Virus record (IMG/VR): IMGVR_UViG_3300006733_000029
Coordinates: 1-36,069 of that record
Reading direction: 5' to 3' (one strand)
DNA length: 36,069 bases
Source of the DNA: a virus
Part shown: positions 5,598 through 32,300 of the stretch, in pieces
How the letters are laid out: every line of letters starts with the position of its first letter
How positions within the stretch are numbered: position 1 is the stretch's first letter
Notes under the pieces: model-generated
The model's input: the letters and a program-made list of their open reading frames with translations, nothing else
What the model was told of the DNA's origin: nothing
The model's database searches: none
Position numbers and translations under genes: made by a program

Positions 5598-8500
5598 CTA
5601 CCTCCTAAGTTGTTCTAATAATTCATCAAGGTTTAGATTTTCAAATTCTTCCTGTAGAGCTATCAATTTTAATGCGTTTCTATCAGCTTCAGTAAGTTCG
5701 ACACGTTGCCATGCCGGTACTGAAACCTTACCTGTTTGCATCATCCAATCATCTAGTGCGGGGTTCTCATATCGGAAATTAAGGCGAGTATTCGCTGTGG
5801 CACTTACCTCCGGGTCATTTATATAGATATCATATAAATCTTCGACCTCTTCAGTCGGCACTTTATCGAACTCTATAGTATCAGTCCACTCTTTAACCTC
5901 TTTAATCTTATAATAGAACTCCAGGTGGTCCGCGAGATATCGTTCTTGTGCCCATCCCGTTTGAGGCAGTAGATAATATTCTACATAGTTGTCCACGTAC
6001 TCTTCTGGCATGAACACACCCCACGCTTGACGGCGATAATAGATTTCCTTAAACGCCTCGGCTGTATCGGCATCCCACAACCCATCAGCCACCATCTTAT
6101 CAGACCATTTAACAGCATTCAGATTAAGAGCATCACCTGTTCGGTCAGCAAACGCATCAAATAAAGGCTGATATTGTTGGTATAACTGGTCATATTCTAT
6201 ATTTGGAATAGTTGATGGGTCTACCGCCGTGAGCCCGTGAGCCTCGGTAAGAATGGCATCAAAGTCCGGGTGTTCATGCCTGAACCTATCTCGCCAGTGA
6301 CCAGTATCAGGTAAGTTCATATACTCCACATACTCGGCAGGGTCCGTATATCCTAACTCATATCCCGCACGTTCAAGCCTCGCGGTACGGTAATCGCTGT
6401 TTTCCGGCAAAGCAAGGAAATCTGCTATAGCCTTGTCACGACTTGTATGGTCTTGACTGTACTTGTCAAGTATAGATTGGTATTGATTATCCTGTTCTTT
6501 ATAGGTATCGGATATCCGCCATATCGGTATGCGGGATTCATCAATAGGTTGAAGTTTTGAGTCACCCCAAATGAGTTCACTGGTACGCATATCATTGTAT
6601 TCAGGATTGTCAACGCGGTACAGTTTAGCGCCTATGGTATCCCCGGCATCCTCAAGCCTCATATAGCCTACGTGCCACGCAACTATATCATCATCGGCGC
6701 CGTATCCGAGTTTTACGATATCTATGGTGCGTTCTATATCCCTGAACTCGGTATCCGCTGGTAGTTCTGTGAAATGTTCACCAGCCTCTATCACTGTTTG
6801 CCTTAAATCTATTATCGCTTGGGCCCGTAGTTCATCATCCGCGATATAAAAATCAGATGTTTCATCGCTGTAGCCATCAAGTTCTATGAAGAGGTCGTGA
6901 TGGTCTACCTGTAACTGCAATACTTCAATCGGTATTTCGGTTTCTTTATACCCAAGGAAGTCGTTTAGGTCAGGGTTCTCGGCGAGGTACAACTTATCTT
7001 CCCAAGATCCACGGCCAAATTCATTAACGATATCTATGCGCTCAAAGTATTCATTTGCAATCGTTGGGTTGGGCAGATATTCTGTAACCGATATCTCTGG
7101 TATGCCTAACTCTTTAACAAGGCTCTCAGCCCTTGTTAGGGCTTGTTTTGAGTAAATTGGTGCCTGTCCCCAAATGGCAAGTAAGGCGTTTTCATCAGGT
7201 CGGTCGGTTAAATATTCCTGTTGCCGGTTTTGGGTGAGTTCCGGGTGAACATCTAAGAAGTCAGGCTGGTCATACTCATCGAGTAGATAATACTGTTTGA
7301 GTAATGAATATTGCGATTGTGTCATATTACCCATATATGCTTTCGAGGTAACATCACCGTGCGGTGTTTCACCTTTATCGAATGCTTCTAAAGCAGCTTG
7401 GTCGCCAGCAGCTACCAGGGCTTGCCTTTGTTGCCATAGTGCATAATAGTCCTCGAAAGTAGAACCCTCGGCAGGGTCGGCATTGAGTTCGATTACAGAT
7501 TGCGATGGTATGTGCTTAAGCGTTTCATTCTTTAAGAATACCGCCTCAACGAATTTAATCATATAAGGTTCAAAGCCCCTATCCTCACTGGCAAATTCAG
7601 GGTCGGTTCCGGAGAACGATGCAGCGTTATCAGCCCAAAAATCCTTAACATCGTATAGAGGGATTACATCACCGTAAAATTCGTTGTCCTCATATTTTTG
7701 CGTACCGAGAAGGGCAAAGTCCTCTCTCCAATCACCAGTATATGTTTGGGCACCCATTCCTATGAAAGCGAATGGTGCAACACCTAATCCAGCGAACTCG
7801 TTTTCTAGGAACGATTCCATGATATCAAGTACGGAGAACGGTAACGTTGCCTCAAGCCATTGCCTCGGATTTTTAACATCTATCTCTTCACCTACATAGT
7901 TTTTACCGGTATAGAAATTAAGGGCTTCAGCGGACATTGGTGCAGCTTTACTTCTCATAAAATCAAAGAGGATGCTTCCGATATCTGTATCACTGGTTGC
8001 ACCGGTCGTCGATGATTTCATGGTTTCTACAGTTGGGTCCACTTGTGCGATTATGATAGATGCCAGCCGGGAGTACAGCACCGCATATTGCTTAAAACCG
8101 CCCCAAGGGTCAATACGAGTATTCCCCACCCTGGCGGTCATAAAGTCGGCACTACGTGGGTCAAACTCAACTTCCCAAAGGTCAAGCAGTTTACCGAGTA
8201 ATAATACACCGGTGAACATACCGATAAACGTGGTCATATCTTTCCATGCTTGTTTGCGGATATATTTGTTACTATTGAACAGGTGCCTCGGCGCCACCAA
8301 GCGTGATACCATAAGTCTCGGTGCAAAGAAGAAAGCGTTGAGGAACCTGGCACCGCCTGATAGTGTTTTACCAAGGCTGGCACGACCGGTCATTTCCGCA
8401 AGATACACCGCCCATTCGTGCATTTCCTTGACTATATCCGGGATATCACCTTTACGCTTACCATCAATAATATCCTCGCGTTCTTGGAGTAATTGTTCAT

Positions 8501-11500
8501 GGCGTGCCTCATAGAGTGCCCAAGTCATATCATTAGTCATAGTAATAAATGCACGTTCAGACATTCGCACACCGACAAATAGTTTTTGGGCAAGTGTTTG
8601 CCATCCCTCGGTGAACTCACCCTCAACTAGTTTTGGTATCAGGCGTTCTTGCCCCTTCATTTGACCGAACTCTTCTCCAAGTGCAACATCAGGTGTTGCC
8701 GCATCCGGGTTTATAACATGAGGTCGCAAGAAGTCACCTTTACCTCCACCGGGGCCGCCACCGTAGTCTTTAAGCCCCTTTTGGTATACCAAATTGTATA
8801 GATTTGAATTTGTTATCCGAGTCCATGCGGCATCAGCCGAATTAGGCGACCACATAGCCGACCATGCTTTTCTAACTGCATTGGTAAACTTAACAGGGTG
8901 TGACACTATCAAAGGTGCCAACTGTCGGCCGGCGGATAAGTCAATCGATGTTCGGATAGCACGTATCATATTACCTATGTCCATAGCGAACAAGCCGATT
9001 TTCTTAAGCCATCTAACTATCCGAGTTGGGTCCGGAGTTGTCCTCACCGGTGCCCCTGGTCGACGCGGTGGGGCAAGGGCAAGTTCCAACCTCAGTAAGT
9101 TCACATCATCCTTAACGTTTTGAGGTAAGCTATCATAATTTGGGTCCGCCGGGATTTCTTTGATGTATTCACCAGTTTCAGCATCTACCATACTAGGCGG
9201 TTGCCCTTGGTTCACCCAATCCTCAACAAGATTACCAGCCGCTTCAGCAAGGGACCGCTTCTCATCAGCCAGTTGTTCGATAGCCTGTATCACCGAAGGG
9301 TCAGAACCGAATACTTTATATAACCGAGTGAAGGCCGATCGACCAGTAGTACCAGGGTCACGCGGGATTGGTTTGCCCATAAGGGCATTGGCAAGTGCAG
9401 TCTCAGTATTCATTATCTCATAGGCATCTGTTAATACCTCATGTATTTGTTCAAAGAGCACTCTACGCATTCTCCCGGTAACATCTTGGACATACTCTTC
9501 TGTTAATGTGGGGAACTTGCCAGACATAGTTTCACGCCTTGCCTGTCTGCTTATTCTCTCCATATTAGGTATCTTGCCGGCAGCCTTAACTTCTGCTATT
9601 AGCTGTTCAAGCCTCGCGAAATAGTTTTGTGCCCTGGTAGCTCTGATATCGGTCCTCAATGCCTTAACTAAATCCCAAGCATTGATAGCATCCGGACTTA
9701 TAAGGTACTGTGCAAACAGTTGGACTATCTTGCGTTTCTGTGCCGGTGTCAGATCTGTCGCCTGTTTAGGCTTGATGGTCGTAACTTCAGTTTCTAACAG
9801 TTTGACTTGGTTTCGGATATCCCTTATGTGCATAGCCTGTTCTGCTATCTCATCAGGTGCCATATCAAGTTTCTTTGTTAAATCATCCAGCACTTCATCC
9901 TTGGGGATATGATTATATAGCCGAGTGCCCTTTTGTTCGTATTTACTCCAATTATGGTTCGGCATGAGTATCTTGGCTTGTTTCACGGTAAAATACTCAG
10001 GGAATGTCTGTTCACGGATGCTGATAAAGTATGTGATATCGACTTCTCTAAAGCCCTTGCCCTTTTCAGTTTCAACACCATCAACTACAACCCTCTTTTT
10101 CTTTACCGGTACTTGGAAGCGGATTTGAGCTAATGGGTCCGAAGTAAGTTCCTCGTTATAACTATCTATCTTGGCAAGAACCTCATCGATACTCGGATAG
10201 ATACCCTCTGGAATAGGGGCGGCCAAACTATCAATATCTAATGCTTCAGCCGGGTCAAAGCCTATAACTTGGTTGATTCTATTGCTATCACGTTCTAAAA
10301 CAACCATCCCATCATAACCTTGTTCTTTCAGCTTCATAGCCTCTTCATGGGACAGGTACATAGGAATATTCTCTGTAGTGGTTATATATGGGTTATTCAT
10401 TTTAATGTCTACCGGGATAACCCTGATTTCACCTTTGGTTTCTACTGTTTTGCCTCGCCCATAGTGTTCTGCTACATCGTAATCAGGTGTTATATAGACA
10501 CCGAATGGTCTATCACCTTCAGGTATTTCTGAATCCCTAATCCACTCCTCTCTGTCTAACCGTGCGGCATCCGGTTCTATTACAGCGTAGTTTTCAACAC
10601 CAGGTCGTGTAGCAGTACCGTGATATCCCCTGAATGTAGCACCACCGCTGAAGTTATCTGGTAATGTGTCCGTGACTAATCTCTCTTCAGTTTGCCCCTC
10701 TCGTTGAGCTTCCCATCGGTCGTGCAATCTACCCCTTACATTACTAGCATCATCAGACATATTCCATGTAGGGTCAACCGCCAGTAAGTATTCATCAAAT
10801 GTCATATCTTCAAGTGATTTGCCTATACGTGCTACGCGCTCTTCTTTAGAAAGCCTTGAGAATGCTTCCCACTCGCCCGGTTCTAATGTGAACTCATGTG
10901 CGACCTCGGTTTCTTTTGGTGCGACTGATTTTCGTGCTTGTTCTTGCTGGAACTCATAGTAAGTTTGTGCAAACGCTTTATCCTTAAATGCTTGGTCAGG
11001 GAACATATTGATACCTGTTATTTGGTCGTGGATTGTCCACGCATCGCCTCGCTTTTCATAACGTGCTGGCGGGAGTTCGTACATATACTCTTGCCCAGGT
11101 GCGACCTCTTGCCCAATGATATCAAGGTCTTTATCTGTAATCCCAATCTCTTCCGGTTTAACATCAAGTTCATTTAATGTCTTGTCTAAGTTATGCCTTA
11201 TAGTCTCAACTGTCGCTTTATTATCGGTAACAACTTGCTGTGCGATATCTAGGGCTATTGTGGCTTTGATAATGTTTTCTGCCCTCTGAACGATTGAAGG
11301 GTCTTCCGCGGCCATTTCTTCTAATGTCTGCTTTATAGCAGCAGTATTATCTACACCACCTTTTACGAGTTCAGCTTTTCTCGTGTGATATTGTGTTTGC
11401 TGTTCAGGGGACAACCGGGAAAGAATACCAAGTTCAAGGCGGTTCATTTGAACTTTAGTTGTCCCTAGCCCATTGCGTTGCATAACATCCCCGGCTAGAC

Positions 11501-13490
11501 CAAAGCCTACACCCATCACGGCACCTATAGCGAAGACCTCACGCATTTCAGGGTCATTCAGCATTTGTGTCCAGGCGCGTTCATCACCTAAAGCCTTGTT
11601 TTGTATAATCGCTTGGTATACCTCTTCACCGCCCTCGGTAAGCCCTTCTATGATGAATTTAGCACCTGTCCACGCAACTTGTGCTAAACCCCTGTTTACG
11701 ACATTCTTTATAGCTGCAACTCTGGCTGGCACCTTCAGAAAAGCAAGGGCCAACTGTGGTGCATCAGACAGCACCAACACCATATTGCCTTTGAATGTTT
11801 GTTGGGCAGCAGCGGATGCTTCAGCATGTGTTAGCCCTTTTGCCCTAGCGGTATCATAGGTTTGTGCGGCTTCAAGTGCGGACTCGAGTGGGCGAGAAAT
11901 CAACGCACCACCTATTGCCCCTACTAGAGTTTGACCAATCGACCCAAGCCCCAAAGCAGCAGCACCACCGGCGGCAAGGCTGAATGCACCCATACTCGGT
12001 ATCATAAGTGCCAATGTTGTAGGAAGAGAAGATGCAACACTTGTTGCCCAAAATTCAGGATTGAGTAAATGTCCCCATTGGAACGTGCCCAAGTCGCTTC
12101 CTATCCCAAGTTGCACAAGAGGTCTAGCCTCTTCGGATATCCTGTTACCAATACCTTCAGCCCCTAGCCACCGAAACACACCACCTATATTATTAACAAG
12201 TGCGCCAGTACCGGATATTAGGTTGCGACCGAACTTATATGCAGTTTCCGTTTTGAGAGTTTCGTAGCGTTCCAACACCTTCAAAGTGAGGCCATAGAAC
12301 TCCCTCGCAGTATAAGCATCACGATCAATCACATATAAATTCCCTTTCGGTGCCCAACCAAAAGGTGTTGCCTCTAAATCACTTGAACTTACATTTGAAC
12401 GTTTCGTCTTAAATGGGAAATCGCCTGTCATACCCTGATAGGCCTTGCCCATCATATAGAGACTAGGCAAATCAAGGGCTTGTAATCCTTGTAGTTCAGG
12501 GTTAAACAAAGCCCCTGGTGGCAATTCCCCACCAAACTCTTCAGCGATTAAGTCCTGTTCAAACATCAAATCAGCCAATCGCTTCAAAGCGCTGTCTTCA
12601 CCGAAGATACCAAGCAAATCATTGGGTGTGAGTTCACCGAACATCATACTCAATAGGTCAATCGTGGCATCGTTCCATCCGACCGACTGTAAATCCTTTA
12701 TAAAACTCGCTGCTTTATCACCCTCAAATACACCGGTCATATAGCTGATAATAGATTCATCACTCATATTGGTAGTAGGGAATGCGTTTTTATATATACC
12801 AATAGCCTCTTCTGTTCTGGCATGACCGGCATACATTTCGACTAAATCCTCTTCCTCAAACTCAAAGAACTGTGAAAGAATACGTCGACCATCAGCCATA
12901 GTAGTATTGCCAACTACATCACCTATAAAACCATCCGGATTGGTGCGAGCTTGTTCAAGCATAATGTTGAACATCTGCCCTTCAGGTACACCACGCTGGA
13001 TTACACTGAACTTCTCCCCACCATGCGGACCGACGCCATATACATCTTCAAGCGGTATGCCAAAAGCCTGACGGTACAGATCTGACACCGCTGTTTGCTC
13101 ACCGATTATCGCTTGTTGTTCTATTAAATCGGCTAATGAGTATGTTTCACCTGTAGGCAAGGTAGTAGTGTAATCTGTAATGAGGCCATCATCATCCCTC
13201 ACGACATTACCGTAGGTCAATCCTTCAGGCGATACATAACCGAATGGGTCCGCGGCTGTAGGGTCAATCCGTAGTTGCCATTGGTCTGTAGGCAAAGTAA
13301 CATCAAACTGTTCTTGTGCTTCAACGGAAGAAAGATTAGTTAATTCATTAGGTAAATTACCATACGCCTCTTCAGCTATTTTGCCAAGGCGTATCTGTTC
13401 TATTACACCAGCTTTTTCATATTGCTGAGTCAATCCCATATCAGCTAATCTGGTTTGTAAGCCGGCGCCGAGATTGCGCGTGGCCATCAT
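5598..13490 (-). CDS. Giant polyvalent-type virion protein (2,630 aa) with ADP-ribosyltransferase-like domain
   Basis: One uninterrupted frame of 7.9 kb lies between portal and scaffold. Visible parts: helical N-terminus; a hydrophobic Gly/Ala-rich stretch near residues 485-535 and another near 640-673; an ADP-ribosyltransferase-like domain near 950-1085 with FRGYHGTA (His957), FGVYITPDYDVAEHYG and GYDGMVVLE followed by VIGFDP, as in the ART domains of phage polyvalent proteins; a long helical core; a membrane-like segment near 1748-1770; and a C-terminal third with loose repeats of the form R-x2-E/D-[NH]-P-x2-D/E (near 2163, 2400, 2515 and 2567). Polyvalent proteins are known as very large multi-domain phage or plasmid products thought to enter the host with DNA. 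The membrane stretches and position fit an internal or ejection protein. The start overlaps the preceding stop (ATGA). Confidence 0.72.
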   Translation of the reverse strand: MMATRNLGAGLQTRLADMGLTQQYEKAGVIEQIRLGKIAEEAYGNLPNELTNLSSVEAQEQFDVTLPTDQWQLRIDPTAADPFGYVSPEGLTYGNVVRDDDGLITDYTTTLPTGETYSLADLIEQQAIIGEQTAVSDLYRQAFGIPLEDVYGVGPHGGEKFSVIQRGVPEGQMFNIMLEQARTNPDGFIGDVVGNTTMADGRRILSQFFEFEEEDLVEMYAGHARTEEAIGIYKNAFPTTNMSDESIISYMTGVFEGDKAASFIKDLQSVGWNDATIDLLSMMFGELTPNDLLGIFGEDSALKRLADLMFEQDLIAEEFGGELPPGALFNPELQGLQALDLPSLYMMGKAYQGMTGDFPFKTKRSNVSSSDLEATPFGWAPKGNLYVIDRDAYTAREFYGLTLKVLERYETLKTETAYKFGRNLISGTGALVNNIGGVFRWLGAEGIGNRISEEARPLVQLGIGSDLGTFQWGHLLNPEFWATSVASSLPTTLALMIPSMGAFSLAAGGAAALGLGSIGQTLVGAIGGALISRPLESALEAAQTYDTARAKGLTHAEASAAAQQTFKGNMVLVLSDAPQLALAFLKVPARVAAIKNVVNRGLAQVAWTGAKFIIEGLTEGGEEVYQAIIQNKALGDERAWTQMLNDPEMREVFAIGAVMGVGFGLAGDVMQRNGLGTTKVQMNRLELGILSRLSPEQQTQYHTRKAELVKGGVDNTAAIKQTLEEMAAEDPSIVQRAENIIKATIALDIAQQVVTDNKATVETIRHNLDKTLNELDVKPEEIGITDKDLDIIGQEVAPGQEYMYELPPARYEKRGDAWTIHDQITGINMFPDQAFKDKAFAQTYYEFQQEQARKSVAPKETEVAHEFTLEPGEWEAFSRLSKEERVARIGKSLEDMTFDEYLLAVDPTWNMSDDASNVRGRLHDRWEAQREGQTEERLVTDTLPDNFSGGATFRGYHGTATRPGVENYAVIEPDAARLDREEWIRDSEIPEGDRPFGVYITPDYDVAEHYGRGKTVETKGEIRVIPVDIKMNNPYITTTENIPMYLSHEEAMKLKEQGYDGMVVLERDSNRINQVIGFDPAEALDIDSLAAPIPEGIYPSIDEVLAKIDSYNEELTSDPLAQIRFQVPVKKKRVVVDGVETEKGKGFREVDITYFISIREQTFPEYFTVKQAKILMPNHNWSKYEQKGTRLYNHIPKDEVLDDLTKKLDMAPDEIAEQAMHIRDIRNQVKLLETEVTTIKPKQATDLTPAQKRKIVQLFAQYLISPDAINAWDLVKALRTDIRATRAQNYFARLEQLIAEVKAAGKIPNMERISRQARRETMSGKFPTLTEEYVQDVTGRMRRVLFEQIHEVLTDAYEIMNTETALANALMGKPIPRDPGTTGRSAFTRLYKVFGSDPSVIQAIEQLADEKRSLAEAAGNLVEDWVNQGQPPSMVDAETGEYIKEIPADPNYDSLPQNVKDDVNLLRLELALAPPRRPGAPVRTTPDPTRIVRWLKKIGLFAMDIGNMIRAIRTSIDLSAGRQLAPLIVSHPVKFTNAVRKAWSAMWSPNSADAAWTRITNSNLYNLVYQKGLKDYGGGPGGGKGDFLRPHVINPDAATPDVALGEEFGQMKGQERLIPKLVEGEFTEGWQTLAQKLFVGVRMSERAFITMTNDMTWALYEARHEQLLQEREDIIDGKRKGDIPDIVKEMHEWAVYLAEMTGRASLGKTLSGGARFLNAFFFAPRLMVSRLVAPRHLFNSNKYIRKQAWKDMTTFIGMFTGVLLLGKLLDLWEVEFDPRSADFMTARVGNTRIDPWGGFKQYAVLYSRLASIIIAQVDPTVETMKSSTTGATSDTDIGSILFDFMRSKAAPMSAEALNFYTGKNYVGEEIDVKNPRQWLEATLPFSVLDIMESFLENEFAGLGVAPFAFIGMGAQTYTGDWREDFALLGTQKYEDNEFYGDVIPLYDVKDFWADNAASFSGTDPEFASEDRGFEPYMIKFVEAVFLKNETLKHIPSQSVIELNADPAEGSTFEDYYALWQQRQALVAAGDQAALEAFDKGETPHGDVTSKAYMGNMTQSQYSLLKQYYLLDEYDQPDFLDVHPELTQNRQQEYLTDRPDENALLAIWGQAPIYSKQALTRAESLVKELGIPEISVTEYLPNPTIANEYFERIDIVNEFGRGSWEDKLYLAENPDLNDFLGYKETEIPIEVLQLQVDHHDLFIELDGYSDETSDFYIADDELRAQAIIDLRQTVIEAGEHFTELPADTEFRDIERTIDIVKLGYGADDDIVAWHVGYMRLEDAGDTIGAKLYRVDNPEYNDMRTSELIWGDSKLQPIDESRIPIWRISDTYKEQDNQYQSILDKYSQDHTSRDKAIADFLALPENSDYRTARLERAGYELGYTDPAEYVEYMNLPDTGHWRDRFRHEHPDFDAILTEAHGLTAVDPSTIPNIEYDQLYQQYQPLFDAFADRTGDALNLNAVKWSDKMVADGLWDADTAEAFKEIYYRRQAWGVFMPEEYVDNYVEYYLLPQTGWAQERYLADHLEFYYKIKEVKEWTDTIEFDKVPTEEVEDLYDIYINDPEVSATANTRLNFRYENPALDDWMMQTGKVSVPAWQRVELTEADRNALKLIALQEEFENLNLDELLEQLRR

Positions 13491-13682: not shown

Positions 13683-15473
13683 TTAGAAGTTCATTACATT
13701 GTCTATCATCGGGCCGGTAGCATTACCTGGGTTATCTTTGCCCTCTTCTGCTGTTGGCGCAATTACATTATCAGGAACCTTACCATTGCCACCACCATTG
13801 CCGTTCTGTTGACCTTGTCCGAGAAGTTGCTGCTTGCGAGCTTTCAGTAATGTTGATGCTTCAATACCTAAAGTCTTCGCAGATATATAGTAGTAATCGG
13901 CTCTCTCTGGGTCCGTCTTCTCTAGTTTCTCGGCTTTTCTTATTGAAGAGAACGCTTGGCAATACATATCAAATATCGGGTTTGTTCGCCTCATGCGATA
14001 GATATCGTTGTCCTCTTCGACAATATCAGGGTTTTCAAGCATCATTATGTTTTTATACACGAAATTAGGCGGTAACACTTTCAAGGCATTCATACCCACC
14101 ATCATGTTCGTATAGTCCAACTTCTTTGATTTGGTCATTAGTTTGCTCTTAATGGTATATCTATCGGGTTTCGGTATGCTTTTATATTCATCTTTATTAC
14201 CTAAACGACCTATTGTAATCCCACCCTTATGCTCGGTTAATTGTTTCAACATCAAACGGATAAGGTCTTCCCGGAAATACTGCAATGCGTTCTTGCGTGA
14301 GGTATGCCGCTTGCTACGCATTTCAGACTCTTCCAGCACCAATAGGGCAGATGGCGGTGTTTGCCCCTGGCGGTCATTGTTGGTTGATGCTACCGCACCA
14401 CGCGATATCATGTAATCAACACTTTGGGTAGATTGTATCGATGCATTTTTGATATCTCCGGTATCTACTATCTGATGCATACCATCTTCAGGTACACCCA
14501 ATGTTTGCCCATCTTTCGGCACCTTTTGGGCGTTAGCAGGGTTCTTTAATTGTTGTTCATATGCAGGGCGAACACTTTTCATACTCACTGTCATATTGAT
14601 AGTTTCGTTGCGAGACTTCGTATCAAGCAAATCCCTGATAAGAAACAGTATGTCCTCATCCTCATGCTTCTTTGAGTCCTTATCATTCAGCATAAAACCA
14701 GAACTCGTGCCGGCAACCACGAAGCGGAGATAGCCACGATTATGTTTAATACTTTCTTCAGGTTTATCCATGTATGTCCGAGGGACCAAGATTGAATCCT
14801 CAGATCCGTCACCAACCCACAACTCATCTTTCTCGGCATCATGCCAATCCCATACTTGTATCAACTCTTTAGTAAACTCTAGCTTTGGTTCTAAACTCGG
14901 ATACTCTTTTATGAGAGAGTACCAAGTGCGCCATGTAACAGGGCAAATCCAGCCATCATCAAGCCCTTCAACACCGTATTCAAAAGGCGTATTCAGCATA
15001 TCGCACGGCTTACAAGTTATCTTCAGTTTTCCATCAACCACCTCGGCAATCCACCGTACACCGATTAGTCCGGTATGGCAAATATGATTTGAAATCCATT
15101 CCTGTAATGATGATATTCGTTTTGACTTACGCAAAGTTTCATCTGTTTGTTCCATAAGACTTTCGACTAAAAGAAACAGTCTGTTATTTTGGTCCGGACT
15201 GATATCGCCCTTGTATGTATCTTGCCACTTTGCCCCCACCAAGTCTTGAATAACATCTTCAGCAAACGTAGCCGCAAGGTTATGGTTGACCGGATAGCAG
15301 TCTTCTATCTTATTACCTTTCCAATCCCGCATAACATACGGTTCGTCCATGAGTATGCGTGAACGAGTATTCTTTATACGTTCACGTTTTGATTGCTCAG
15401 ATTCAAGTTTTTTCCGCGCTATCTCGATAGTAGTCATTGGTTTGTGTAGTGCCGCTGTTTCAGATGAAGCCAT
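13683..15473 (-). CDS. Portal protein
   Basis: The product (596 aa) has the size of podovirus-type portals and lies immediately downstream of the large terminase, the canonical place. It starts MASSETAALHKPMTT with a GGGGG ribosome-binding site about 5 bases upstream. The N-terminal half has conserved-looking segments LQEWISNHICHTGLIGVRW and DMLNTPFEYGVEGLDDG, in the style of the wing and clip regions of portals; the middle is helical (QYFREDLIRLMLKQLTEHKG) and the C-terminus ends in a Gln/Gly/Asn-rich flexible tail. The portal forms the dodecameric DNA channel at one capsid vertex. No single diagnostic residue was recognised, so order and size carry much of the call. Confidence 0.78.
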   Translation of the reverse strand: MASSETAALHKPMTTIEIARKKLESEQSKRERIKNTRSRILMDEPYVMRDWKGNKIEDCYPVNHNLAATFAEDVIQDLVGAKWQDTYKGDISPDQNNRLFLLVESLMEQTDETLRKSKRISSLQEWISNHICHTGLIGVRWIAEVVDGKLKITCKPCDMLNTPFEYGVEGLDDGWICPVTWRTWYSLIKEYPSLEPKLEFTKELIQVWDWHDAEKDELWVGDGSEDSILVPRTYMDKPEESIKHNRGYLRFVVAGTSSGFMLNDKDSKKHEDEDILFLIRDLLDTKSRNETINMTVSMKSVRPAYEQQLKNPANAQKVPKDGQTLGVPEDGMHQIVDTGDIKNASIQSTQSVDYMISRGAVASTNNDRQGQTPPSALLVLEESEMRSKRHTSRKNALQYFREDLIRLMLKQLTEHKGGITIGRLGNKDEYKSIPKPDRYTIKSKLMTKSKKLDYTNMMVGMNALKVLPPNFVYKNIMMLENPDIVEEDNDIYRMRRTNPIFDMYCQAFSSIRKAEKLEKTDPERADYYYISAKTLGIEASTLLKARKQQLLGQGQQNGNGGGNGKVPDNVIAPTAEEGKDNPGNATGPMIDNVMNF

Positions 15474-15482
15474 GATGCCCCC

Positions 15483-16991
15483 TTAATAATCCTCTGGTTC
15501 TGGTAATTCATTTGAGGTTATGCCCACTTCGTATTCCGGTGCCAAGTACCTTAACCCGGCAAAATAGTGGTATTTACTCTCGTTTGCTATCTTATTCGTC
15601 GGCATGTTTTCATCATCAAGTTCCCACATCATATTACAGAACTCAAGGTACAAGCCGTTCTCATCATTGAAGATATACATACTATTGTTTTCTTGTAACT
15701 TAACAATATGCTGAATTTGAGGCCCAACGGAGTTAGGACCGGTTATCAGCGGTTCGTACATCGGCCAGCCTATATCTGTAAACCCCTGTCTTATTTGGTC
15801 TTCACCAGATTTATTACCGCCGACACTCTTCACAACCCTATAATCACGAGTGATATCTTCCCAATTCTGTACGTGCTGTTTGTTCGACCGAGCCCCATCA
15901 GGCTTGTACTGCTTAAAAATAACCATATCGCCGGCACGCATATGCTTCGGTGCGCCCGGTGGTAACGGCAATCGTGCTTCAGCCGCGGCAAGCATAACGG
16001 TATTTGCTGGTCCGAAGTCGTGCCCGGTTTTAACCGGCCAGTTTTTCGGTATGGGGAAGCGGTCTACTCTACAAAGGTGTTCATTCCAGTTTTGGTTCAC
16101 AAGCCACAGGTCTTGTATATCATCATCTTGGGCAAGAATTTCACGCCTGTACGCATCCTTGTCCATATCTTCGAGCATTTCATCAAGGGCATCCGGGTCC
16201 AAGTCCGGATTATCATGTGATGTACCGTGGAAGCACAACCAGCGCTGTAGACCGGTCTTATCAGGTTTATCATCCTTGTGCTTATTGAACAGTTTAGAAG
16301 CGTGCCGAGGGTCTTTAGCCCAACTCTTCTGTTCGGAACCGAGACGCGGTGGAGTGAATATAAATACAGCGGTACCGCGATATCTAGCCAGCATCGGGAT
16401 ACCAACCTCACCCCATGTCTCCTCTTTCATCAGCTGGAACTCTTCAAGTATCAGTAATTGCCACGTACCACCACGAAGCGTATTCGGGTTATACGCGGTC
16501 TTGGCCTTAAGTTTAATATCGGTTCCTACGGCTATTATCTCTTTCTTAGTTTCATCCTTTTTGAATATCCCCAATGCAATCGGATGAGCTAGGGCAGTAC
16601 ATACCTCAAACCAAAACTTTGCTACCTGTTCGTCGGTCGGTGCGGCGTACAAAACACGCTGTTGGTCTACAATATACCCACTACCCTTGCAGAGACGGCA
16701 CTCCTCGTTCCCCTGCTTACCGTGACAGGTTGGGCATTCCTTCACCACATTACCTGTACCGTGGCAATGCGGACAATCGGTATCCCCAGGTAGACCGCGG
16801 CAATCGAAACATACACCTACAAAAGCGCTGGCTGCCTTTATCGCTGCACCCACCGTTTTACCCAACTGCCGACCAGCCTTTATGATTTGCCGAAGATGAG
16901 TGTCCCAAACGAAGTCCGTCTGAATTTCAGAGTTAGGCTTCCTTATCTTTATGCGTACACGCGTAGTTTTCTCTGGTGCTGCTACTGGCAT
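15483..16991 (-). CDS. terL: Terminase large subunit with DnaJ-type zinc-finger insert
   Basis: The 502-residue packaging motor has an ATPase and a nuclease half. Visible: Walker A-like AGRQLGKT at residues 39-46, Walker B LLILEEF near 180-186, a coupling-type segment AVFIFTPP near 205-215, and the nuclease start KTGHDFG near residue 325, with later acidic residues. Directly after the Walker A helix, residues 61-105, is an insert with four CxxCxG repeats (Cys 61, 64, 73, 76, 86, 89, 98, 101), the pattern of the DnaJ cysteine-rich domain. The ATPase resumes with RVLYAAPTDEQVAKFW. Terminases do not normally carry this insert. The start overlaps the upstream stop (TAATG). Confidence 0.92.
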   Translation of the reverse strand: MPVAAPEKTTRVRIKIRKPNSEIQTDFVWDTHLRQIIKAGRQLGKTVGAAIKAASAFVGVCFDCRGLPGDTDCPHCHGTGNVVKECPTCHGKQGNEECRLCKGSGYIVDQQRVLYAAPTDEQVAKFWFEVCTALAHPIALGIFKKDETKKEIIAVGTDIKLKAKTAYNPNTLRGGTWQLLILEEFQLMKEETWGEVGIPMLARYRGTAVFIFTPPRLGSEQKSWAKDPRHASKLFNKHKDDKPDKTGLQRWLCFHGTSHDNPDLDPDALDEMLEDMDKDAYRREILAQDDDIQDLWLVNQNWNEHLCRVDRFPIPKNWPVKTGHDFGPANTVMLAAAEARLPLPPGAPKHMRAGDMVIFKQYKPDGARSNKQHVQNWEDITRDYRVVKSVGGNKSGEDQIRQGFTDIGWPMYEPLITGPNSVGPQIQHIVKLQENNSMYIFNDENGLYLEFCNMMWELDDENMPTNKIANESKYHYFAGLRYLAPEYEVGITSNELPEPEDY

Positions 16992-17191: not shown

Positions 17192-17291
17192 TACGAACTC
17201 CCTTTTTAGCCTCTTCATACCGATGATAGTTCTTTTTAGATAAAGGCTCATGAGAGTAACCTTTAGTTATTCCATGTCTGGGTTTTGGCAT
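17166..17291 (-). CDS. Tiny basic protein (41 aa)
   Basis: GGAT and 5 bases precede ATG at 17291, which overlaps the stop of the Cys-rich gene upstream (TAATG). The product reads MPKPRHGITKGYSHEPLSKK and continues with a Lys/Glu-rich helix to its TAA. It overlaps the start of the membrane-protein gene by 26 bases. The sequence is compositionally protein-like (charged, low in rare residues) and the chained overlaps on both sides support translation. Function unknown. Confidence 0.5.
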   Translation of the reverse strand: MPKPRHGITKGYSHEPLSKKNYHRYEEAKKGVRNVEADKDE

Positions 17292-17590
17292 TACTTATCC
17301 TTTTTGATCTTACCGCAAGTCGGACACCTTTCAACCACTTCCCCGCAATCAGGGCAAATATCCTCTGGCACAGGGTTCCACGGCCACGGGTAGTAGTAGG
17401 GATTGGAACAAGGACAAACATGGCTCTCACCCCAATTCACCCATAAACCGCAACCCTGGCACCAATAACCGTATGTGTATTCCGGCCAAACACCTGAACT
17501 GAATGTTATGCTTGAAATGTCCGGCTGAACGTAATTTTCATCCTCAACGTGGTAATAATTCGCAGTAACAGCGACTACAGCTTCCATCAT
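17291..17590 (-). CDS. Cys-rich double zinc-ribbon-like protein (99 aa)
   Basis: ATG at 17590 follows a full GGAGG by 8 bases, which decides the start against longer readings. The N-terminal half is beta-like and rich in Tyr and Val; the C-terminal half has WCQGCGLWVNWGESHVCPC, then a Pro/Tyr/Trp-rich link, then ICPDCGEVVERCPTCGKIK. The CxxC pairs suggest two zinc knuckles. It sits between terminase subunits in a chain of overlapping small genes (ATGA with the gene before, TAATG with the gene after). Function unknown. Confidence 0.62.
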   Translation of the reverse strand: MMEAVVAVTANYYHVEDENYVQPDISSITFSSGVWPEYTYGYWCQGCGLWVNWGESHVCPCSNPYYYPWPWNPVPEDICPDCGEVVERCPTCGKIKKDK

Positions 17591-17745
17591 CTTGTTGTCC
17601 TCCAACCTAATTTTAATCCGCAGCGACACTTTTCCACCGGCCAAGCACACCAGCACTCGTGTACCGGGTGGGTTTCTGGCGCGTTCATTCTGTCAACGAC
17701 TAGCGCGCCAGCGCTCGATTTTGATTTCTGCTTGCCATCAGCCAT
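17587..17745 (-). CDS. Small Cys-containing protein (about 52 aa), start uncertain
   Basis: The frame ends at a TGA that overlaps the ATG of the next gene. The C-terminal half, ETHPVHECWCAWPVEKCRCG, has a His/Cys pattern compatible with a metal site. The ATG at 17745 would overlap the upstream gene by 46 bases; another ATG at MNAPETHP would shorten the product to about 33 residues. No strong ribosome-binding site decides between them. Coupling to both neighbours supports expression; function unknown. Confidence 0.42.
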   Translation of the reverse strand: MADGKQKSKSSAGALVVDRMNAPETHPVHECWCAWPVEKCRCGLKLGWRTTR

Positions 17746-18172: not shown

Positions 18173-18655
18173 TCACTCCAACATAATAGCATCATCGGCG
18201 GCCTCGTTTGGTTCACCGGTTACAAACTCAATATCAAATACAATACGCCCAAGCATAGCGTGCTTAATTGGGGCATACTCGCCTGTCATTTTATTAACTA
18301 TATCTATCGCGTTCATATTGGGGCTAGGTGTAATTATATCGCCATCTTTACCATGATAGTACGTATTTCGTGCTATTTTACTCAATATTTCGAGAGATTC
18401 AGCACGATTTATAATATTGGGAGATAATAAAGACTGTTTTATAATAGATATATAGGTCGATATCTTAATATTGCTTAACATGGTATTAGCAAGCACGCCG
18501 GCAGAATTATCGCTTGATATATCATAATGTGCAGCCTTGATTGCTTCAGTACCATTATTATTAAATGCGTAGTGAATGCAAAAATCAGCCTCTTTTTGAG
18601 TATATGTATACTCTTTAGGCGGTTGTGGCATGTTATCAGGAACTATAGCACCCAT
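18173..18655 (-). CDS. terS: Terminase small subunit
   Basis: The 160-residue product has the pattern of phage small terminases: after a Pro-rich N-terminus comes YTQKEADFCIHYAFNNNGTEAIKAA, a helix-turn-helix in which a Thr/Glu-containing turn is followed by A-I-K-A-A, then a stretch ending in LANTMLSNIKISTYI. It would bind the packaging site and load the large subunit. It is the first gene of the minus-strand operon. No ribosome-binding site is visible and a consensus promoter ends only 6 bases upstream, so its transcript may be leaderless. A run of very small genes and a gap of 300 bases separate it from the large subunit, which is usually next. Confidence 0.82.
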   Translation of the reverse strand: MGAIVPDNMPQPPKEYTYTQKEADFCIHYAFNNNGTEAIKAAHYDISSDNSAGVLANTMLSNIKISTYISIIKQSLLSPNIINRAESLEILSKIARNTYYHGKDGDIITPSPNMNAIDIVNKMTGEYAPIKHAMLGRIVFDIEFVTGEPNEAADDAIMLE

Positions 18656-29954: not shown

Positions 29955-30606
29955 GCGAGTTATCACCGCCGGGACCAGTACGGTTTGCGGTTACAACGTA
30001 TCTAGTAAATATTTTAGTGGCCTCCAATGGGACAGTCGTGTATATAAAGATAGCGGACCACATATCTTACACCCATTCCCTAGCGGGTATCTGCATGTGC
30101 CATTCATAGAACCAGATGGGACAGATGATGGGCGAGTCTTCAGAGTGCGTGCAAGGCTTGAGATTGATGATAAGTTTTGGGTCCCAGAGAAGCACATACT
30201 CGCAGTTGATTTTAGCAACCACAATACCATGCTTTCAGTCAGGTGTTTGTATGCAGATGGGGAAACGAGGGAATGGAACCCTAAAGATATCCCTATGAAA
30301 GCATATGAAAAGCTATGGGACTATGAGGGCAGACAACCTATGTTGCGACCATATATATTTATGTTTGAGTTCATGCACCGCTACGAGGGAATAATCACCA
30401 GTGTCGGCGGTGAACGGTTGCAGGATATAAGTTACAACGATACGGTGGCAGAGGGCATTGATAAACAATATGGCATTTGGGGATTTCAAGTGCTTTGGGA
30501 CAGCATAAACGGCAAACCTAAAAAAAAGAAAGATGGCACAGTTATAGATAATTCATGGAAAACTAACCCTTGGGTATGGAAATATGGGATAAAGCCAATA
30601 TGCTGA
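29887..30606 (+). CDS. ASCH-like phage protein (239 aa)
   Basis: ATG at 29887 is chosen because AGGAG lies 7 bases upstream; it starts inside the preceding gene. The N-terminus MKRLSFTQENLKKFLSCQKS followed by QTRRVI is the typical opening of phage ASCH-like proteins (T-x-E-x2-x-x-[IL]-x-[GS]-x-K-x-Q-T-R-R). Other matching segments are KFWVPEKH, GERLQDISYNDTVAEGI and FQVLWDSINGK, ending NPWVWKYGI. ASCH domains are thought to bind RNA or modified bases. Its end overlaps the methyltransferase start (ATG at 30600, TGA at 30604). Confidence 0.72.
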   Translation: MKRLSFTQENLKKFLSCQKSQTRRVITAGTSTVCGYNVSSKYFSGLQWDSRVYKDSGPHILHPFPSGYLHVPFIEPDGTDDGRVFRVRARLEIDDKFWVPEKHILAVDFSNHNTMLSVRCLYADGETREWNPKDIPMKAYEKLWDYEGRQPMLRPYIFMFEFMHRYEGIITSVGGERLQDISYNDTVAEGIDKQYGIWGFQVLWDSINGKPKKKKDGTVIDNSWKTNPWVWKYGIKPIC

Positions 30607-32300
30607 AGCACTTTGACTTGTTTAGTGGCATAGGTGGTTTTGCCCTTGCAGCACATTGGGCTGGCTTCCAAACCGTAGGGTTTGTTGAGATCGACCAGTA
30701 TTGCCAAAAGGTGCTGAAAAAACATTGGCCAAACGTGCCGATAGTAGAGGATATACATGACAGAGAAAAAATCAAAGAAGTCGCCGGACAAGTTAATACC
30801 GACACCATCAGCGACACCGAGGGGACCGCACTCAGGCAGAAAGTTGACCAAGGGCGGTCAGACAATCAGCCACACGACAGGGACCGCTTGGGGTCCGACC
30901 CTGGAGACATACGCGAAGCTCTATCCGACACCGACAGGTTCGCAAGCGAGGTCCGAGGGGATGATAAAGATGATGAGGGCGAAAGTGGAAGCAGGGGAGA
31001 TAACGAGAGAGGAAGCCGAAGCGATGATACAAGGGTCACTGGAACCGAACCGCATGGAACCGATAAAAGAGAAAGAGGGCAGCCAACAGTTGACCTTATT
31101 ACCGGCGGGTTCCCTTGCCAACCTTTTAGTGTCGCCGGGAAGCAAACAGGCACAACAGACGACCGTTACCTCTGGCCAGCAATGCTCAATGTCATTAAAG
31201 ACCTCAGACCAACTTGGGTACTTGCTGAAAACGTTGTCGGCATCAACAACATTCTTTTCCCGGCTACAACTGCTGAAATGGAACTTGCTGCCCTTCAAAG
31301 TTTTCAGGACTGTGACATACGGTTTATCTCTGAGTTCGAGAAGCATAGTCAAACAGAAATTAAGTGGAAGATTGTTCAAACCCGAATACTGGATGAAATT
31401 ATCCAAGACCTTGAAAAAGCGGGATACGAAGTTCCACGAACTAAACAAGGGCAACCCGTCCTATTATGTATTCCAGCTTGTGGCGTCAACGCCCCCCACC
31501 GACGATATAGGTACTGGATTGTGGCTAGGAACACCGAGGGCAACCGAGGCGAAGAGAAGTCACGAGTTCCGCAAGGGGCGGACACCGAGCCCGGAAGAGT
31601 TTGTGGACCAAGAACCGCAGAAGTTGTGGGCAACCCCACAAGCGATGGACAGCAGATCAGACACGAGGAAACCGGAAGAGAGGTCGGACGCAGCGAACAA
31701 GGGCGGTTGTTCCAACTTGAGGGAACAAGTGATGTGGCCGACACCGCGAGTGGGGGGACAAGAGGGATACGAAACGAGAGCGAAGCGGAAAGGTCACGAT
31801 GTAGCGATGAACTATCTGGAGAGTGCGGTGGAACACGCGGAAATGCTACCGACTCCAACTCAGAGGGATTACAAGGACACGCTGAACAGCCGGCCCAACA
31901 AGCAGGAACACTTGACCGACCGGATACGGAAACTCCTGCCGACTCCGAAGGCATTGGAAGTGGACGAAACACCGGAACAATGGGAGAAGAGACGTCAGAA
32001 TCCCAAAGCAAAGCAGATGGGACCGAGCTTGTCAGTAGCAGCAAAGATGTTGCCGACAATGACAGGGGACGATGCGAAGAACAATGCGGGTCCGAGCCAG
32101 TACAATCGACTGTCGAATGGGAAGCCGAGGGCGTTGAACCTCAATGCGGAGATTGGTGGGGCATTGAACCCAACGTGGGTAGAGTGGCTCATGGGATACC
32201 CGCTAGGGTGGACCGACTTAAAGGACTTGGAAACGCCATTGTCCCCCAAGTAGCGTATGAAATACTCAGAATAATAGCGGAGATAGAGACTATTGGCTAA
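30600..32300 (+). CDS. C5 cytosine DNA methyltransferase (frame A of a dual-coding region)
   Basis: ATG at 30600 (MLKHFDLFSGIGGF) is the usual family start; longer readings from ATG 30576 or TTG 30570 are possible. Motifs: I DLFSGIGG at 6-13, IV GGFPCQPFS at 169-177 with catalytic Cys173, VI ENV at 210-212, VIII HRRYRYW at 300-306, and X GLGNAIVP at 542-549. The product (566 aa) methylates cytosine in an unknown sequence, for modification or protection from restriction. Residues 60-163 and 312-515 are long hydrophilic, low-complexity inserts (rich in D, E, G, S, R, T) where the +1 frame codes for a second protein. The motif I to IV distance (about 160) is about twice normal. The TAA overlaps the next start by 8 bases. 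Confidence 0.88.
   Translation: MLKHFDLFSGIGGFALAAHWAGFQTVGFVEIDQYCQKVLKKHWPNVPIVEDIHDREKIKEVAGQVNTDTISDTEGTALRQKVDQGRSDNQPHDRDRLGSDPGDIREALSDTDRFASEVRGDDKDDEGESGSRGDNERGSRSDDTRVTGTEPHGTDKRERGQPTVDLITGGFPCQPFSVAGKQTGTTDDRYLWPAMLNVIKDLRPTWVLAENVVGINNILFPATTAEMELAALQSFQDCDIRFISEFEKHSQTEIKWKIVQTRILDEIIQDLEKAGYEVPRTKQGQPVLLCIPACGVNAPHRRYRYWIVARNTEGNRGEEKSRVPQGADTEPGRVCGPRTAEVVGNPTSDGQQIRHEETGREVGRSEQGRLFQLEGTSDVADTASGGTRGIRNESEAERSRCSDELSGECGGTRGNATDSNSEGLQGHAEQPAQQAGTLDRPDTETPADSEGIGSGRNTGTMGEETSESQSKADGTELVSSSKDVADNDRGRCEEQCGSEPVQSTVEWEAEGVEPQCGDWWGIEPNVGRVAHGIPARVDRLKGLGNAIVPQVAYEILRIIAEIETIG
30757..32253 (+). CDS. Overlapping +1-frame PTP-repeat protein inside the methyltransferase gene (498 aa)
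   Basis: This frame has ATG at 30757 with AGAGG 6 bases upstream and runs 498 codons without a stop inside the methyltransferase gene. About eight short repeats centred on [LMW]-P-T-P occur near residues 13, 55, 257, 290, 326, 363, 393 and 431 (LYPTPTGSQARSEG, MWPTPRVGGQ, MLPTPTQRDYKD, LLPTPKALE). Near the C-terminus it reads LNPTWVEWLMGYPLGWTDL, a phrase I recognise from many phage and prophage hypothetical proteins. Residues 110-250, opposite catalytic motifs IV-VIII, lack repeats. Length, ribosome site and ordered repeats make chance unlikely. Function unknown. Confidence 0.7.
   Translation: MTEKKSKKSPDKLIPTPSATPRGPHSGRKLTKGGQTISHTTGTAWGPTLETYAKLYPTPTGSQARSEGMIKMMRAKVEAGEITREEAEAMIQGSLEPNRMEPIKEKEGSQQLTLLPAGSLANLLVSPGSKQAQQTTVTSGQQCSMSLKTSDQLGYLLKTLSASTTFFSRLQLLKWNLLPFKVFRTVTYGLSLSSRSIVKQKLSGRLFKPEYWMKLSKTLKKRDTKFHELNKGNPSYYVFQLVASTPPTDDIGTGLWLGTPRATEAKRSHEFRKGRTPSPEEFVDQEPQKLWATPQAMDSRSDTRKPEERSDAANKGGCSNLREQVMWPTPRVGGQEGYETRAKRKGHDVAMNYLESAVEHAEMLPTPTQRDYKDTLNSRPNKQEHLTDRIRKLLPTPKALEVDETPEQWEKRRQNPKAKQMGPSLSVAAKMLPTMTGDDAKNNAGPSQYNRLSNGKPRALNLNAEIGGALNPTWVEWLMGYPLGWTDLKDLETPLSPK

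Follow-up and report, generated by a model that had tools for sequence, protein, structure and literature searches.

A cysteine-rich, probably zinc-binding insert in a viral large terminase resembles the DnaJ cysteine-rich domain, most likely by convergence

Our question was whether a DnaJ-like cysteine-rich stretch inside a viral packaging ATPase is a captured chaperone domain or an element that arose within the terminase itself. The window, by which we mean the whole 36,069-base virus record analyzed here, encodes a large terminase (TerL) in which a first-pass annotation had noted four CxxCxG repeats just after Walker A and had read them as the exact layout of the DnaJ domain. The four motifs are indeed present in the 502-residue open frame (Cys 61/64, 73/76, 86/89, and 98/101, every pair as CxxCxG), and they follow the Walker A helix. 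That helix, given as residues 39–46 in the annotation, spans residues 45–58 in our model, and the Walker A motif residues 40–46. The claim of an exact DnaJ layout does not hold. The features of the gene are as follows:

15483..16991, minus strand: large terminase (TerL), 502 aa, with ATPase and nuclease domains
16854..16874, minus strand: Walker A motif GRQLGKT, residues 40–46
16659..16817, minus strand: Cys-rich insert region, residues 59–111, delimited by loop length against 105 TerLs and by a 26-residue gap against the closest relative
16752..16811, minus strand: unit 1, residues 61–80, CFDCRGLPGDTDCPHCHGTG, probable first zinc site
16677..16736, minus strand: unit 2, residues 86–105, CPTCHGKQGNEECRLCKGSG, probable second zinc site
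16635..16658, minus strand: strand beta2, RVLYAAPT, residues 112–119, directly after the insert
16626..16628, minus strand: Q122, aligned with Q72 of P74-26 TerL
16473..16475, minus strand: R173, aligned with R139 of P74-26 TerL

The frame is open across all 502 residues and matches the PHROG terminase large subunit family phrog_2 (8.4e-26); Pfam Terminase_6N scores 12.1 bits, below its 22-bit cut-off. An AlphaFold2 model of the whole protein, calculated from an alignment of 56 TerLs (mean pLDDT 89.0), has the ATPase fold of P74-26 TerL (4zni, 4znl; VIA-align Z 22.8 for the ATPase domain) and of HK97 TerL (6z6d; Z 18.9 for the full protein). Model residues 292–488 align with the P22 nuclease domain (Z 18.4, rmsd 3.0, 174 residues), and Asp-325 in the motif GHDFG is nearly invariant among the 56 aligned TerLs. 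Profile alignment to P74-26 TerL (4zni and 4znj; published numbers are the 4zni chain index minus 5) pairs the Walker A motifs, Q122 with Q72, and R173 with R139, which we take to be the trans-acting arginine finger; the entry titled R139A (4znj) has an alanine at the position aligned with R173. Q72 has been described as the glutamate switch (PMC9410871). Residues at the Walker A, Walker B acidic, arginine finger, and glutamate switch positions (G40, R41, K45, T46, Q122, R173, and E184) are invariant in the 56 TerLs, as are R112, L114, Y115, P118, and T119 of strand beta2. By alignment, the packaging ATPase residues are intact in the window TerL. P74-26 TerL differs at the insert site, where it has a short turn (ELFARPGSQGW). 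The nearest named relative, the TerL of Methanosarcina virus MetMV (MK170447.1; 48.6% identity over residues 111–291), has no zinc insert. Its Walker A motif is interrupted by an intein-like insertion (L002:6795-9092), as are those of two IMG/VR relatives (L073, L085); the site at which other relatives have the zinc insert follows a few residues later.

The insert sits between helix 45–58 and strand 113–117 of the model and makes the loop 50 residues longer than in TerLs that lack it. It consists of two units in one register with the common pattern C-x2-C-x-G-x2-G-x3-C-x2-C-x-G-x-G and a period of 25, so that the internal spacing of unit 2 equals that of unit 1; 9 of 25 residues are identical between them, 8 of these being Cys or Gly. 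The window contains a single instance of a six-Cys version of this geometry, and 100 dinucleotide shuffles contain none. In the whole-protein model the insert reaches pLDDT values of 57–79 (57–62 over unit 2), a moderate and for unit 2 moderate to low confidence, too low for the model to prove a zinc geometry. Modeled alone without an alignment, it gave a mean pLDDT of 41.8, which is uninformative and was not used in the fold search. No DnaJ or other zinc fold is among the fold matches listed for the whole model, which says little, as low-confidence stretches were omitted. The metal bound by the insert cysteines is probably zinc.

To place the insert among related proteins, we searched IMG/VR with the window and MetMV TerLs and obtained 155 relatives, 80 of which were analyzed; eight of these 80 have cysteines in the loop between Walker A and beta2. 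A second search and two insert-pattern scans brought the set to 105 related TerLs with a readable Walker A (L041, L073, L085, and L120 were left out of the loop-length count). No insert is found in 93 of the 105, which for this family bears out the annotation's remark that large terminases generally lack a zinc domain at this place. Among the 93, the loop has its basic length of 17 residues in 89 and is a Cys-free 24-residue loop in two, and the last two fall outside the measuring pattern but contain no Cys insert. A two-motif form with 20 extra residues is present in 11 TerLs, and one further TerL (L006), 75% identical to that of the window, has a two-motif insert of 24 extra residues matching the first half of the window insert; unit 1 is thus orthologous to the entire L006 insert. 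Four motifs occur in the window alone among the window and the 105 related TerLs. The same loop therefore shows a series of zero, two, and four motifs, the common form of the insert adding about 20 residues with the pattern CxxCxGxGCxxCxxTG. Two TerLs (L105:7923-9551 and L115:7926-9527) have a loop that is seven residues longer at this site and free of Cys, which indicates that the site tolerates other insertions.

In IMG/VR, 11 stretches fit the strict pattern GKT-x14-CxxCxGxGCxxC, all of them TerLs of the same family as the window protein, and a relaxed version hit 64 stretches, 31 with an open frame, including 12 TerLs. A scan of viral contigs for the six-Cys geometry returned 77 stretches, none recognizable as a terminase, which leaves one sequence with the four-motif form. 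Two scans of cellular genome contigs found no relative. The carriers are a small group of viruses known solely from environmental DNA; at title and abstract level we found no description of such an insert in a phage TerL in the literature, and we found no experimental study of any TerL that carries one.

The four cysteines are conserved over divergent relatives: they are kept in all eight carriers found without the insert as bait and in 13 of 13 overall, a conservation that is partly built in for L123, L124, L128, and L131, which were found by their Cys pattern. In the 11 short inserts the cysteines and three knuckle glycines are invariant and a Thr-Gly is near-fixed; the remaining positions accept up to nine different residues, and apart from the cysteines the inserts are 36–77% identical. 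Over the 22 codons of the unit 1 region (G59–G80), window and L006 differ by 10 synonymous and 2 nonsynonymous changes, the other 10 codons being identical. In the DnaJ central domain, two zinc ions are held by a nested pairing of repeats 1–4 and 2–3. In 12 of the 13 carriers there are no motifs beyond 1 and 2, so the pairing in the window insert is probably 1–2 and 3–4 rather than nested.

We calculated a tree from which the insert columns had been removed (35 rows chosen from a 93-row tree, which gave the same picture). Twelve of the 13 carriers, including the window and L006, form one clade nested among TerLs without insert (bootstrap/SH-aLRT 98/96), within which the window and L006 proteins are sisters (100/100). 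The remaining carrier, L124, groups with the no-insert TerLs L018, L025, and L029 (100/97). A single origin of the 13 inserts was rejected, as the AU test discards a one-clade constraint (p-AU 2.8e-6); on this phylogeny the L124 insert is a second gain or a transfer.

How unit 2 arose can be asked at the DNA level. Units 1 and 2 share 38 of 75 nucleotides, which is what their amino acid sequences alone would impose (null mean 38.0, sd 2.4), and a recent tandem duplication is not visible in the DNA. That unit 2 arose by duplication is thus suggested by its geometry and not by residual nucleotide similarity. Nowhere else in the window are 40 or more of the 75 nucleotides shared with unit 2. An origin in the Cys-rich gene next door was likewise discarded: the resemblance (VVERCPTCGK versus VVKECPTCHGK, 16 of 36 nucleotides identical) was taken as chance.

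TerL is flanked by the genes expected around a terminase, with the small subunit (TerS) upstream and a probable portal gene, assigned by position and relatives only, directly downstream:

18173..18655, minus strand: small terminase (TerS), Pfam Terminase_2 (PF03592, 1.3e-10) and phrog_51 (1.1e-12)
17291..17656, minus strand: small Cys-rich protein between TerS and TerL, with weak zinc-ribbon matches
13683..15473, minus strand: probable portal protein, 596 aa, assigned from its position and from relatives beside other TerLs

The probable portal has no Pfam or PHROG match. Between L006 and the window it is 89% identical and TerS 49%, and the insert goes from two to four motifs, a contrast from one genome pair that may only reflect a generally slower portal. 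The small Cys-rich protein has an L006 homologue that is 57% identical overall, with the last 21 residues (CPDCGEVVERCPTCGKIKKDK) identical. Leaving L006 aside, the probable portal is matched best among 24 loci by L124:2700-4427 (32%); L124 is also the one carrier that falls outside the main clade, and this hints at module exchange. A portal-based search for close kin returned six loci: L262, which is the L006 contig, L124, already known, and four new ones. In L263, L264, and L265 the related portal adjoins an unrelated TerL-like gene, and in L266 there is a weak TerL match beside it (29% from residue 233).

Two further loci of the window deserve mention in their own right. A 2630-aa protein (5598-13490, minus strand) has no Pfam match above cut-off and no PHROG match, is 76% identical to a partial L006 homologue, and has counterparts in similar giant ORFs that follow the portal in several relatives. 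A 498-aa open frame (30757-32253, plus strand, inside 30570-32300, plus strand) overlaps the gene of a C5 cytosine methylase, which is read in a different frame. The 498-aa product matches phrog_1008, labeled 'DNA methyltransferase' (6.3e-32, three stretches); the frame that encodes the methylase has matches to phrog_363 and PF00145. A tblastn search with the 498-aa frame hit 53 phage records, 48 of them from Paenibacillus phages, and the feature names are methyltransferase among the 12 matches listed. The 498-aa frame seems to be a conserved overlapping gene, and its family seems to have taken its label from the methylase with which it overlaps.

Taken together, we favor, with reasonable though not high confidence, a Cys4 zinc knuckle that was born inside TerL, was later doubled, and is probably a docking knob on the portal-distal ATPase domain. 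The knuckle would have arisen in one TerL branch, at the turn that leads from the Walker A helix into beta2, as some 20 extra residues binding one metal ion. In the window lineage the linker would then have grown by four residues and a second unit of equal geometry would have been added, and the resulting four motifs would probably form two zinc sites. The HK97 motor has its nuclease ring immediately under the portal and the ATPase domains below that ring (PMC10359639), an arrangement that would put the insert in the portal-distal ring. There it could act as a rigid knob contacting TerS, an adjoining TerL subunit, or DNA on its way in. The near-zero net charge of the inserts leads us to favor a protein contact over a bare DNA contact. 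Of the partners the first-pass annotation had suggested (portal, TerS, or DNA), the portal is the least likely.

The knuckle may have no partner and merely stiffen the crossover from the Walker A helix to beta2, tuning the hydrolysis-driven motion of beta2 and the glutamate switch. We regard this as a minor but real possibility. The insert directly precedes beta2, with Q122 soon after it, and little beyond Cys, Gly, and a Thr-Gly is close to fixed; yet an insert of about 50 residues with a second unit exceeds what a staple needs, and 93 of the 105 relatives manage without any.

We judge it rather unlikely that the insert is a finger touching DNA on its way into the motor, in the manner of the metal-binding accessory domains that XPD and DinG helicases carry within their first helicase domain. 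The net charge of the 13 inserts is close to neutral (−2 to +2), the largest being the most acidic, and the ASCE fold implies that the turn lies at the edge of the sheet and away from where beta2 ends on the ATP side. DNA contact would be in keeping with the Trp that 6 of the 11 short inserts have in their first knuckle, with the place of the ATPase domain on the portal-distal, DNA-entry side in HK97 (PMC10359639), and with the accessory domains reported within HD1 of DinG/XPD-family helicases (PMC10450177).

We consider it improbable that the cysteines bind an iron-sulfur cluster or form a redox switch. A set of four cysteines arranged as two CxxC pairs is able to bind iron as well as zinc, but Gly-rich CxxCxG knuckles are typical of zinc, and the insert's matches with a recognized metal are all zinc sites (DnaJ, anti-TRAP, and antiterminator Q). 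The accessory domains of the XPD/DinG family are described as iron-sulfur domains (PMC10450177). Their cluster is held by four cysteines within an insertion in the first RecA-like domain, and the likeness to the window insert is one of position only.

That the insert is a cysteine-rich domain taken over from a DnaJ of host or viral origin, and that it binds an unfolded or partly folded partner, was the reading that the first-pass annotation had placed beside separate evolution, and we now find it very improbable. It draws on a real likeness, four CxxCxG motifs within one compact stretch. Among Pfam families PF00684 matches the isolated insert best (27.4 bits, 4.2e-6), and the insert's best PDB sequence match is E. 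coli DnaJ (1exk; 2e-4). The search with the DnaJ central-domain model proposed in the annotation nevertheless leaves the insert under the curated cut-off of 32.7 bits, and the whole window TerL scores 21.8. Motif starts are spaced 12/13/12 in the insert versus 17/22/14 in 1exk (taken from alignment coordinates), and motifs 1 and 3 read CxxCxGxxG, so that the four CxxCxGxG motifs of DnaJ at their spacing are not there. A Pfam scan of the whole window TerL, a packaging ATPase, detects neither a J domain nor DnaJ substrate-binding domains. Two-motif relatives speak for stepwise growth in the same loop, and PF00684 does not recognize the short form well: of two short forms tested, L008 is unmatched and L131 weak (16.0 bits), and the L006 insert is also weak (16.2 bits). 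On spacing, score, and the series of zero, two, and four motifs we rejected descent from DnaJ; the resemblance most likely reflects convergence, and of the two origins proposed in the annotation it is the separate one that stands.

Partial DnaJ domains do occur in phage enzymes. Two CXXCXGXG motifs are reported in the DNA polymerases of HMO-2011-type phages, which are family A enzymes with the insertion between exonuclease and polymerase domains (PMC9038755), and a partial DnaJ-type domain is reported in the Q-like Loki gp45 (PMC5313236). By these accounts phage proteins carry such knuckles elsewhere. Antiterminator Q (7ubj, 4mo1) has a zinc knuckle pair (CxxCxGTG ... CxxCxGxGY) that gives a weak sequence match to the insert; it differs in being a transcription antiterminator with a longer linker, and we see no sign of descent. 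In herpesvirus terminases, zinc-finger patterns are reported for pUL56/pUL28 and pUL89/pUL15, including a 'pUL89-ZF' in the TerL homologue; the pUL56/pUL28 pattern is C-C-C-H, and the passages cited describe no CxxCxG repeats (PMC7920273).

A disordered, neutral, and functionless expansion is equally far-fetched: the moderate to low pLDDT of unit 2 and its occurrence in a single sequence would fit, but the four cysteines of the independently found carriers, the excess of synonymous changes in unit 1, and the second acquisition in the same loop (L124) speak against it.

One may speculate, with little confidence, that the loop is an evolvable accessory site that gained a zinc knuckle at least twice and doubled it once. 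The knob would then serve as a swappable specificity element, with beta2 and the glutamate switch relaying a particular signal from TerS or DNA to the ATPase, and its size would track the evolution of TerS and not that of the portal. How the TerL ATPase ring communicates with the small subunit and with DNA is still unsettled, and an accessory domain confined to one fixed loop offers a natural experiment, with related phages that carry zero, two, or four motifs. The DnaJ-like four-motif cysteine pattern appears to have been reached here stepwise and independently, and such motifs in viral proteins should not be taken for chaperone domains.
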